Assembly (NCBI GenBank): GCA_027310575.1 | Contig: DAIDAO010000004.1 | Span: 1 to 55,948, forward strand | Direction: 5' to 3' | Origin: a bacterium | Lineage (GTDB): Archaea > Thermoproteota > Nitrososphaeria > Nitrososphaerales > Gagatemarchaeaceae | Length of the DNA: 55,948 nucleotides | In this document: positions 42,098 to 44,424 of the stretch, one piece after another | Numbering within the stretch: the first letter of the stretch is position 1 | How the letters are laid out: every line of letters starts with the position of its first letter | Notes under the pieces: generated by a model | Databases searched by the model: none | Told to the model about the DNA's origin: nothing | What the model saw: only the letters and a program-made list of their open reading frames with translations | Position numbers and translations under genes: made by a program

Positions 42098-43228
42098 TTG
42101 CCAAAGATCAAGGTCGCGATGTACGGGCTGACAAGCGAGGCCTACAGGCTCGCCGCAGACCTTGTCGACAAGGCCCAGATCACCATCGTCGACGAGACCC
42201 TGCAGATGGCCATGGACCTCGACCCGGCCTTCCTCAAGAAGAACCCGAACCTCCAGGACGTGATGGCAGAGGAGCCGCTGCTCAGCGTCAAGCCCCTGGA
42301 GCAGGTTCTGGGGGAGGCGCAGGTCATCTTCTTCACGCCCAGGCTCAGGCGGCCTTCGGACGAGACGCTCATCGAAGCGGGGACCAAGCTCAGGGACCTG
42401 GCGAGGTACCTTTCGAAGGGCGTGACCCTGGTCAACTCCCTCCCCACCGGTCCCGGCGGGAACTCGGAGAACATCATGCTGGTCGAGAAGCAGACGGGGC
42501 TTCAGGTCGGCTCGACGATCACGTATTCCTACATGCCCCTGAGGCCGAGGGACCCGAAGCCCGCGGTCGTGTCTGCCGCAGGCCTGATGGAGAAGGGGGC
42601 GCTCCAGCTGCTCGGCTTCGTCCCGAATTCACAGAACGTCTTCTCCGCCGAGCTCGAGTACGCGTCAGGGGTCATGGAGACTGCGGTCTCTTCGGTCACG
42701 GAGATCGAGATGGCGAGGAGGGCGAGGGAGGCCAAGGTGTCCATCCAGAGGCCGTCGAGCGCCTACCTGGACGAGTTCTCGAAGTTCCTCTACGAGCTGA
42801 AGGCGATCCAGTCGAGCGAGGAGACTGGGGAGTCGATCTCGTACCTCGCAGGCGCGGCCCTGAAGAGCTTCGACAACTACGTGAGGTACGTGGTCGACGA
42901 GACGCGGGAGGTGCTGAAGGAGAAGCAGCTGAAGGCGAGCAGGACGAAGATATCGCTGCTATGGAACCTTGACAAGTACGAGATGCGCGGTGAGAGGCTG
43001 CAGGTCGCGGAGAGCATCCAGCAGAGGCTGCGTGACTACGTGACCGACGTCGACGTGGTCTCGCGTCCGAAGGGGAGAGGAGGGGCTGAGCTCCTCGACC
43101 CGCTCAAGCACAACGTGGTGATAGTCTGCTCGAAGGACGACTTGGACGTGATGAAGCAGGCCAGGAAAGAGCAGAGGAGCGTCGAGACCACGGTCCTGTC
43201 CGCCACCCCCGCGCTGACCCGTGACTAG
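42098..43228 (+). CDS. Rossmann-fold protein resembling the N-terminal half of UDP-sugar dehydrogenases
   Basis: A 376-residue protein. KIKVAMYGLTSEAYRLAADLVDKAQITIVDE resembles the NAD-binding start of UDP-glucose/ManNAc dehydrogenases, and ARYLSKGVTLVNSLPTGPGGNSENIMLVEKQTG parallels their second strand block. The catalytic cysteine motif (GGxCxP-like) is not visible. The middle is helical and the C-terminus is different. Function unknown; it could be a regulatory or pseudo-enzyme relative. TTG start; AAGTATAATACC lies about 35 bp upstream. Confidence 0.6.
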   Translation: MPKIKVAMYGLTSEAYRLAADLVDKAQITIVDETLQMAMDLDPAFLKKNPNLQDVMAEEPLLSVKPLEQVLGEAQVIFFTPRLRRPSDETLIEAGTKLRDLARYLSKGVTLVNSLPTGPGGNSENIMLVEKQTGLQVGSTITYSYMPLRPRDPKPAVVSAAGLMEKGALQLLGFVPNSQNVFSAELEYASGVMETAVSSVTEIEMARRAREAKVSIQRPSSAYLDEFSKFLYELKAIQSSEETGESISYLAGAALKSFDNYVRYVVDETREVLKEKQLKASRTKISLLWNLDKYEMRGERLQVAESIQQRLRDYVTDVDVVSRPKGRGGAELLDPLKHNVVIVCSKDDLDVMKQARKEQRSVETTVLSATPALTRD

Positions 43229-43231
43229 CCT

Positions 43232-43708
43232 TCAGTTGATCCTGTTCTGGCTGACGTAGAGGCTCCCCCCCTGGACCACCACGCCGTACTCCGCGAGAGG
43301 GGCGGGCGGGGGGCCTCCCTGGACCGACCCGTCCGCCGGGCTGAAGTAGCCTGCATGGCACGGGCAGTAGAGGGACGAGCCCGTGAATTCTACCGCGCAG
43401 CCGGCGTGGGTGCAGATGGCGCTGAACGCGCGCCACTGGCCGCTGAAATCGACCAAGATCGACGAGCCCCCCGTGGGGTGGTTGAAGTACGCGGAAGACT
43501 TCCCGGAAAGCGCGGAGACCGGGGCCACATAGAGGTACCCGGAAGGCGCCTGCAGGGACTGGGTCTGGGTCCCCCCTCCTATCGTCTGGGTGATCCCCGC
43601 CGGAGACTGCGAGTCCAGCTTGGACACGGCTTCGAAGAAGGAGAGTGCGCCTATGGCGCCGAAGACCGCCACAAGTGACGCCCTTCTGATGAACTCCCGC
43701 CTATCCGT
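43232..43708 (-). CDS. Rieske [2Fe-2S] protein with Tat-type signal
   Basis: Cluster ligands are in CTHAGC and CPCHAGYF, a classic Rieske pair. Upstream of the first conventional start (GTG at 43672) the frame encodes TDRREFIRRASL directly before the hydrophobic VAVFGAIGALSFF, a strong twin-arginine signal, so translation should begin earlier. No ATG/GTG/TTG exists in that frame; I place the limit at the ACG at 43708 (GAGGTGAGGG lies just before). A non-standard start or a sequence indel is possible. It follows a di-heme-like membrane protein, so membrane electron transfer is likely. Confidence 0.82.
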   Translation of the reverse strand, partial: TDRREFIRRASLVAVFGAIGALSFFEAVSKLDSQSPAGITQTIGGGTQTQSLQAPSGYLYVAPVSALSGKSSAYFNHPTGGSSILVDFSGQWRAFSAICTHAGCAVEFTGSSLYCPCHAGYFSPADGSVQGGPPPAPLAEYGVVVQGGSLYVSQNRIN

Positions 43709-43715
43709 CGGACCC

Positions 43716-44192
43716 TCACCTCGGCCTCGCGCGCATCTTCCTGATGTTGTAGGAGGCGCTGACCAGGGCGACAGCCCCGGACGCCAGGAGCGCAGGGACC
43801 GAGACGACTGGGGGGAGGGTGGCCCCGGACGCGGCCGCGTGGACGACCACCAGAGACACGACGGCGACCGCGAGCGAACCGTGGAGGAAGAAAGAGTCCT
43901 TGTTCCGTTCCAGAAAACCGACCCCGGTGGCCCAGAGGATGACGCCGAGGGTGAACGCGCCGTAGCCGAGGTCCACGGCCACGGTTATCGGCGGAGAGAA
44001 GAGCAGAGCGATGTGCGCCGCCAGGAGGACGGCGGCCAGCACAGAGACGACAATGTGGATGGTCCTGAGGGGCTCGACGCCCCCCAGGGCCGTTACCAGC
44101 TTGGCCCTGAATGCCATTATGGCCGCAGACGCACCCACGAAAGCCAGCGCGGCGAACCCCGTGATGTCGCCGAGGACGATTGACGGGAGCAT
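43716..44192 (-). CDS. Membrane protein with two bis-histidine helices, probable b-type cytochrome
   Basis: A 158-residue protein with five hydrophobic helices. Two of them carry histidine pairs with the same spacing (IHIVVSVLAAVLLAAHIAL and FLHGSLAVAVVSLVVVHAA), as in helices that hold two stacked b hemes. No sequence-family match was recognised. It sits between a small secreted acidic protein and a Rieske protein in one operon, suggesting a compact quinol or metal electron-transfer unit. Confidence 0.6.
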   Translation of the reverse strand: MLPSIVLGDITGFAALAFVGASAAIMAFRAKLVTALGGVEPLRTIHIVVSVLAAVLLAAHIALLFSPPITVAVDLGYGAFTLGVILWATGVGFLERNKDSFFLHGSLAVAVVSLVVVHAAASGATLPPVVSVPALLASGAVALVSASYNIRKMRARPR

Positions 44193-44205
44193 CGGTCAGC
44201 TCCGA

Positions 44206-44424
44206 CTAGCTGTCGAAGCCCGAGCCGCCGTCGTCGTCTCCGCTTCCTGTCGAGGCGGGCGGCGGCGTCAGGAGGGTGCTGTTGGTGCCTGCGCCCTGAG
44301 GCGTGTACGTGCCCGTCGACTGGGCAGGGGCCGCTGCGACGTGGGGGCTCGCGAACACGACGAAGGCCAGGACTCCGCCCACCACAAGGAGGGCGGCCAG
44401 AGAGACCACGGATAGCCTGTGCAT
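44206..44424 (-). CDS. Small secreted protein with Asp-rich C-terminus
   Basis: A 72-residue protein from the ATG at 44424: hydrophobic signal/anchor (SVVSLAALLVVGGVLAFVVFAS), Thr/Pro-rich middle, and GSGDDDGGSGFDS at the end. No family. AATTATAAC (about 44449-44457 on minus) lies about 29 bp upstream, so the mRNA is leaderless. It is first in the operon with the di-heme-like and Rieske genes. Confidence 0.6.
   Translation of the reverse strand: MHRLSVVSLAALLVVGGVLAFVVFASPHVAAAPAQSTGTYTPQGAGTNSTLLTPPPASTGSGDDDGGSGFDS

Follow-up and report, generated by a model that had tools for sequence, protein, structure and literature searches.

The stretch analysed, called the window throughout (55,948 nucleotides, G000:C47), is one of the 61 contigs that make up a 1.58 Mb genome. 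Three open reading frames on its minus strand were read in the order small protein, membrane protein, and Rieske protein, and on the opposite strand a long frame terminates at 43228, leaving a distance of three bases to the Rieske stop codon. The genes and features are as follows.

44206..44424, minus strand: small one-helix protein of 72 aa (open reading frame with ATG start), an N-terminal hydrophobic helix followed by an S/T/P-rich tail
43716..44192, minus strand: five-helix membrane protein of 158 aa, probable two-heme b-type cytochrome (open reading frame, conserved histidines, AlphaFold model, and weak family matches)
44055..44057, minus strand: His46 on helix 2, predicted inner-side heme ligand (conservation and charge count)
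44013..44015, minus strand: His60 on helix 2, predicted outer-side heme ligand (conservation and charge count)
43881..43883, minus strand: His104 on helix 4, predicted inner-side heme ligand (conservation and charge count)
43839..43841, minus strand: His118 on helix 4, predicted outer-side heme ligand (conservation and charge count)
43716..43722, minus strand: GAGGTGA, ribosome-binding-like, 7 nt before the ACG codon and overlapping the membrane-gene stop codon (read by eye, unscored)
43706..43708, minus strand: ACG codon at the usual start-codon place of the relatives (ATG, GTG, or TTG there in 12 of 17 loci)
43232..43708, minus strand: Tat-type Rieske [2Fe-2S] protein of 158 aa counted from the ACG codon, an RR signal-anchor followed by a Rieske domain (PF00355, 2.2e-10)
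43355..43414, minus strand: Rieske cluster motif CTHAGC...CPCH, with ligands C99, H101, C115, and H118 (ACG as codon 1) and disulfide pair C104/C117

The Rieske frame contains no ATG, GTG, or TTG before its RR motif; at four of the 17 loci compared, a canonical start was found within four codons of the start place. The ACG is either a rare start codon or an assembly error.

The window membrane protein matched 13 of 61 related genomes (16 places). Among 400 genomes of the order, profile A1 matched 22, at 28 places, and among 398 genomes drawn from the phylum it matched the window's own genome only. A scan of the GTDB genome collection, which was narrow in that one peptide pattern served as the query, returned 12 named loci, 11 of them in records titled Thaumarchaeota, Nitrososphaerota, or "archaeon" MAGs; by length, 10 of the 12 were the same contigs as loci with G handles, and the merged set comprised 30 loci. 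Viral contigs scanned with the window membrane protein, a search that detects close relatives only, gave no match. The AcS and SubAcS records among the homologues are presumably Gagatemarchaeaceae. One record (L044, palsa_1115) is titled Deltaproteobacteria, a label that is probably wrong; the genes surrounding the locus appeared archaeal by eye (TrmB-like regulator and CdvB-like protein).

The Rieske gene starts at most 60 nt from the end of the membrane-gene match in 18 of the 30 loci, and the small gene lies just upstream in 16 of these 18, so the three-gene unit given in the preliminary description recurs in the same order in related archaea. G143a and G003b have the Rieske gene and lack the small gene. 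The Rieske gene lies 2.5 kb downstream of the membrane gene at one locus (palsa_1115), no neighboring Rieske gene was present at nine, and a contig end falls inside the membrane gene at two (G029 and G058b). Two loci (G011 and G019) were identical to each other, and G016a and G028 were nearly identical.

A Rieske profile search identified full-length module-type Rieske proteins (at least 227 bits) in 12 of the 61 genomes (14 places). Every one of the 12 is among the 13 genomes that have the membrane protein, and the remaining one is G029, where the locus is cut by the contig end. The best match in the other 48 genomes scored 110 bits (G027), followed by matches of 83 bits or less. The G027 match (L122, G027:C73:16507-16704) is a C-terminal Rieske remnant without a signal peptide, found in a genome without a membrane-protein match and sitting, by eye, behind ABC-transporter-like genes. 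Distances among the membrane proteins and among the Rieske proteins were correlated over 17 loci (Mantel r of 0.65, 0 of 2000 permutations), which shared descent alone can produce. The three-gene unit was confirmed as real and more than a set of chance open reading frames by its recurrence in relatives, the conserved histidines, and the co-occurrence of the two main genes across the 61 genomes; the chance explanation was ruled out by the conservation in relatives.

The membrane proteins were aligned (A3, 26 of the 30 proteins) after excluding G029 and G058b, which are truncated, as well as one member from each pair of duplicates. The preliminary description had described a five-helix protein with equally spaced histidine pairs and had let its case depend on their conservation in homologues; the spacing is 14 residues within each pair (46/60 and 104/118), and all four histidines were kept in 26 of 26 rows, as were G12, P68, G76, Y77, and G90.

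Its statement that the membrane protein lacks a recognized family is nearly correct: the window protein scored above the threshold of no Pfam family, but its relatives did match known families. At E values up to 10, DUF4405 and Ni_hydr_CYTB each matched 12 of the 26 members (best 2e-5 and 6.6e-4, respectively), Ferric_reduct matched six (best 0.055), DUF202 five, and DUF2070 four, with further families also represented. The commonest matches were thus models of two-heme proteins, and we place DUF4405, Ni_hydr_CYTB, and Ferric_reduct in the Pfam clan of two-heme cytochromes. One relative (G148) passed the DUF4405 (PF14358) cut-off with 29.4 against 26.7 bits, G019 and G143 matched below it, and the window protein gave no DUF4405 match at an E value of 10. 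Ferric_reduct (PF01794) scores were 8.6 bits for the window protein and 14 bits for the best member, under the cut-off of 28. In the members that were scored, the stretches aligned to the models of DUF4405, cytochrome b561 (PF01292), and ferric reductase (FRD) include histidine-bearing helices, and those aligned to DUF4405 and b561 cover helices 1-2 with the first histidine pair. As a cytochrome b relative was present in 17 of the 20 DUF4405 loci examined, DUF4405 cannot tell these families apart. Among NCBIfam models, the b-type hydrogenase cytochrome TIGR02125 was one of the most shared (two of 26 members at 0.0089), and the others were scattered.

The AlphaFold model of the window protein (pLDDT 70, pTM 0.58), which contains no heme, is made up of five long helices, with a short additional helix between the first two (residues 3-27, 29-36, 39-64, 71-97, 101-123, and 128-154); the model of a relative's membrane protein reached a pLDDT of 72 and a pTM of 0.61. 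Foldseek with the two models gave no match at 0.001, and the membrane-family profile matched no PDB sequence at an E value of 10. In VIA-align 2, the window model aligned with cytochrome b561 (4o7g; Z 8.7, rmsd 4.5, 146 residues aligned), Dcytb (5zle; Z 8.1, rmsd 4.7 over 149), and SpNOX (8qt6; Z 7.7, rmsd 5.6 over 150), and SpNOX, NOX5, STEAP1, and cytochrome b6 accounted for 9 of the 50 rows listed for the relative's model (Z 5.5-7.1). All of these rows lie within the noise band stated for helical bundles, and in each list unrelated proteins scored higher (up to Z 9.9 and 9.6, respectively), so the fold comparison is not significant. Local hhalign of the family gave weak matches to FRD (E of 0.0045, 66 columns), one kind of cytochrome b (cytB1; 0.019, 69 columns), and a second kind (cytB2; 0.097), compared with 0.23-0.35 for reversed controls. 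The FRD set came from five of eight loci, and the cytB2 set of 13 rows included one non-gene frame of L111. The FRD match pairs family helices 1-2 with FRD helices 4-5 and does not cover the full helix set.

From these sequence features, the five-helix protein is probably a two-heme b-type cytochrome. A heme-free protein, whose histidines would form an ion or metal path while the Rieske partner plays another role, agrees with the subthreshold scores of the window protein and with the DUF202 and DUF2070 matches of some members. We regard it as very improbable, given two histidine pairs at heme spacing that are invariant in the family, a redox protein as the partner, and family matches that cover histidine-bearing helices.

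The orientation of the histidine pairs was predicted from the distribution of charged residues. The mean number of K and R in the 26 rows was 5.8 in the loop between helices 1 and 2, 1.9 in the loop between helices 3 and 4, and 3.6 at the C-terminus, compared with 0.04, 0.0, and 0.27 in the outer segments. In 26 of 26 rows, 3-13 K/R occur in the loop joining helices 1 and 2 and none in that joining helices 2 and 3, which places H46/H104 inside and H60/H118 outside as a prediction. Within 16 residues, the mean K and R count was 4.3 and 1.9 before the first histidine of the two pairs and 0 and 0.27 after the second. The helix-5 pair of the five local FRD relatives showed the same pattern (3-4 before and 0-1 after). 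In contrast, the helix-B pair of cytochrome b had 1-2 before and 3 after (five of five cytB1) or 1 and 4 (12 of 12 genuine cytB2), and the window genome's own cytochrome b had 2 and 3. The helix-D pair of cytochrome b gave a tie (1 before and 1 after in five of five cytB1), and a search by spacing did not find it in cytB2; because of this tie, helix B alone locally supports an orientation opposite to that of cytochrome b, whose first histidines face outward. In the module, the first histidine of each pair is thus predicted to be inside, like that of the ferric reductase and NOX proteins and opposite to that of cytochrome b. In NOX2, His101 and His209 lie near the cytoplasm according to PMC3591440.

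The preliminary description had likened the module to a stripped-down bc-type unit. Such a miniature quinol oxidase would have an outer-face quinol site between the Rieske protein and the outer heme and would bifurcate electrons. It would use the same cofactor set if hemes are bound, the histidine pairs are 14 apart on two helices as they are on cytochrome b helix B, and the relative's model aligned with cytochrome b6 beside NOX (Z 5.5-6.5, 117-123 residues, rmsd 4.3-4.9), a comparison that is not significant. The main argument against it is the predicted orientation, which is inside-out relative to the textbook orientation of cytochrome b. In addition, a protein of 158 aa lacks the second half with the Qo-site motif, and the genome holds a separate cytochrome b (PEWY) with a Rieske protein. 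The bc-type reading was rejected on orientation, size, and the separate cytochrome b, and we consider it distinctly unlikely. As for cytochrome b in the order as a whole, two kinds were observed (L103-L121), with 48-51% identity to that of the window genome at 4 loci and 25-29% at 12 loci, together with a fragment of 33% identity.

The Rieske protein bears on the same question. Its Tat type, as described previously, agrees with its RR motif (DRREFIRR preceding the hydrophobic stretch). The Pfam Rieske model (PF00355) scored 40.7 bits against a cut-off of 20.3, and PDB Rieske chains matched the protein with a best value of 5.9e-13. In the alignment of 17 Rieske proteins (A5, one of each duplicate pair omitted), all 17 rows have the RR pair as well as all four ligands of the cluster (CxH..C...CxCH motif), and the disulfide cysteines were kept in 16 of 17. 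The exception is the palsa_1115 Rieske protein (L044, 10964-11599), in which both disulfide cysteines are lost (CTHRPY and CPLH) and the cluster ligands are kept. Bovine numbering was placed on the module Rieske protein through the CPCH motif, which we assume to be the correct anchor, and the counterparts of Ser163 and Tyr165 were Gly/Ala and Phe, respectively, in 17 of 17 rows. PMC12445004 counts the disulfide among the features of high-potential Rieske proteins and describes Ser163 and Tyr165 as forming hydrogen bonds to the cluster in these proteins; the change of Tyr165 to Phe is said in PMC10715153, for another group, to lower bc1 activity. The kept disulfide would therefore suit a miniature bc unit, while the missing Ser and Tyr counterparts speak against it. 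The window genome's own bc-type Rieske protein reads CPCHGSIY, and the potential of the module Rieske protein is predicted to be below that of this protein.

Of 15 small proteins, 12 have an S-L-L-T-like stretch in the tail. The window tail ends in DDDGG...D and has four Asp and no His, while some relatives have His runs in addition or instead and the G178a tail contains no D/E; the earlier label of an Asp-rich protein is too strong. In seven homologues, the membrane protein has an N-terminal extension, and no Rieske gene lies close by (one-gene form). Searching with the small-protein helix by hmmsearch gave a single match above all shuffles (G143b), and an ungapped matrix was built instead from 14 of the 15 small proteins (G103, with a one-residue insertion, was omitted); its register and weights and the one-gene start codons were chosen by hand. 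Four one-gene forms scored highly, all at one offset (G148, p of 0.0002; G178b, 0.0006; G143b, 0.0008; G162, 0.005; 5000 shuffles each), and in the other three the resemblance failed (G132, 0.026; G036b, 0.055; G127, 0.088), with p values that are not independent because the sequences are related. None of 146 other hydrophobic N-termini reached the lowest of the four high-scoring forms; the control set had comprised 147, and the one that exceeded the threshold was the small protein of G010 in a version that begins at an earlier start codon.

Because the N-terminal helix of the one-gene form resembles the small-protein helix in four of seven cases, we read the two forms as the outcome of a gene split or fusion, with six helices in total and the histidines on helices 3 and 5. 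The one-gene form fits this arrangement, and the window form does so on condition that helix 1 comes from the small protein. The preliminary description had offered the small protein as a secreted acceptor partner; it may be better seen as a one-helix subunit. The three one-gene genomes checked for it (G036, G143, and G178) also have the module Rieske gene at a second locus with its own membrane protein. The existence of a one-gene form without a Rieske gene suggests a heme protein able to serve other outlets.

To characterize the surroundings of the module, 253 frames of at least 80 aa within 6 kb of the 17 Rieske-bearing loci were clustered, and the families were judged by eye. Flank lengths varied (minimum of 821 bases), and the longest overlapping frame was kept, so that some genes were missed; the membrane gene was recovered in its own cluster at 12 of the 17 loci. 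No donor or acceptor gene recurred in these flanks. The closely related G000, G001, G018, and G019 have flanks in common. In four loci (G003b, G143a, G178a, and L044), a winged-helix-like regulator lies near the module; a small membrane protein (~100-131 aa) weakly similar to DUF5985/DUF7521 lies near it in G103, G143a, and L044 and, by eye, in G003b, and two further families recur in four and three loci at differing distances. A fused membrane-Rieske protein adjoins the module in four loci (G058, G103, G178a, and L044). The window genome also has such a fused form (L093; C14, Rieske match 1459-1791). By eye, the fused form consists of about four N-terminal membrane helices and a Rieske domain of the CTHVCCQ type, resembling the dual Sec/Tat Rieske proteins of PMC5449189. 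In the window genome, cupredoxin domains were matched seven times and heme-copper oxidases twice.

The flanks also bear on whether electrons move inward or to metals, with an outer donor being oxidized or a metal being reduced via the Rieske protein and the hemes and the small-protein tail binding metal. The ferric-reductase-like orientation would suit this reading, as would tails with Asp and, in several relatives, His. We give it a low probability: by eye, neither a flavin/NAD(P)H enzyme nor a family of metal transporters recurred in the 17 flanks, and the absence of His from the window tail and of acidic residues from that of G178a also weighs against it.

We therefore favor, with a probability of about 0.6, a split transmembrane conduit that would carry electrons through two hemes to an external Rieske partner. 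Gene order, conservation, co-occurrence, charge topology, and the resemblance of the small helix to some one-gene N-termini were computed; we infer heme binding, complex formation, the electron direction, the donor, the acceptor, and the substrates. The heme-copper oxidase and cupredoxin-domain matches of the window genome count in favor of this reading. Counting against it are the subthreshold scores of the window protein, the weak fold and profile comparisons, the nine loci without a neighboring Rieske gene, the two that lack the small gene, the three one-gene forms in which the helix resemblance fails, and flanks in which no donor or acceptor gene recurs. Two b hemes would be stacked between helices 2 and 4, the inner one bound by H46/H104 and the outer one by H60/H118. 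The small protein would provide a sixth helix on the N-terminal side, its tail with Asp and, in some relatives, His lying outside. Electrons from the quinol pool or the inner face would move across the membrane via the two hemes to the Tat-exported Rieske cluster on the outer face and then to an external acceptor, such as a cupredoxin. Such a layout would be like that of MsrQ/MsrP, with the Rieske protein replacing MsrP. A more far-reaching proposal, that the module represents a self-standing class of quinol:acceptor oxidoreductase in which a dihaem cytochrome of ferric-reductase orientation takes its first helix from a metal-tailed subunit and works with a Rieske protein, is tentative and rather unlikely.

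If quinol electrons do reach the outer face without a complex III core, the module would form a minimal respiratory branch in these relatives of the Nitrososphaerota, whose electron transport is little described, and would be a further quinol-to-outside route beside bc complexes and Alternative Complex III. It would also provide an example of a ferric-reductase-like protein whose Rieske partner is a separate protein, and of a heme protein that occurs in one-gene and split forms. The main text of the Gagatemarchaeaceae family paper (PMC10640624) contains no mention of Rieske, b561, complex III, or bc1, and a search of open-licence papers showed no description of an archaeal Rieske/b561/DUF4405 unit in the titles and opening lines of abstracts that were listed.

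Beside the DUF4405 and cytochrome b561 models discussed above, four known systems can be compared with the module. Cytochrome bc1/b6f shares the dihaem-type helix pairs and the Rieske partner and differs in the predicted orientation and in possessing the Qo half. The ferric reductase superfamily (NOX, FRE, and STEAP) likewise carries two histidines on each of two helices with the first on the cytoplasmic side, as described for NOX2 in PMC3591440; its six helices are matched only when the small-protein helix is counted, and the module lacks the flavin/NADPH domain and scores under the PF01794 cut-off. Actinobacterial polytopic Rieske proteins (dual Sec/Tat) similarly combine membrane helices with a Tat-inserted Rieske domain, but PMC5449189 describes three transmembrane segments on the Rieske polypeptide itself within bc complexes, whereas the five-helix protein of the module is separate. 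MsrP/MsrQ (YedY/YedZ), together with the fused Sco3746 family, likewise pairs a small heme-b membrane protein with a Tat-exported redox protein according to the same paper (PMC5449189). The two pairs are distinguished by their exported partner, which is a molybdenum enzyme in MsrP and a Rieske protein in the module, and by their histidines: the first His is replaced by Arg in YedZ proteins (PMC3591440), whereas all four are kept in the membrane protein of the module.
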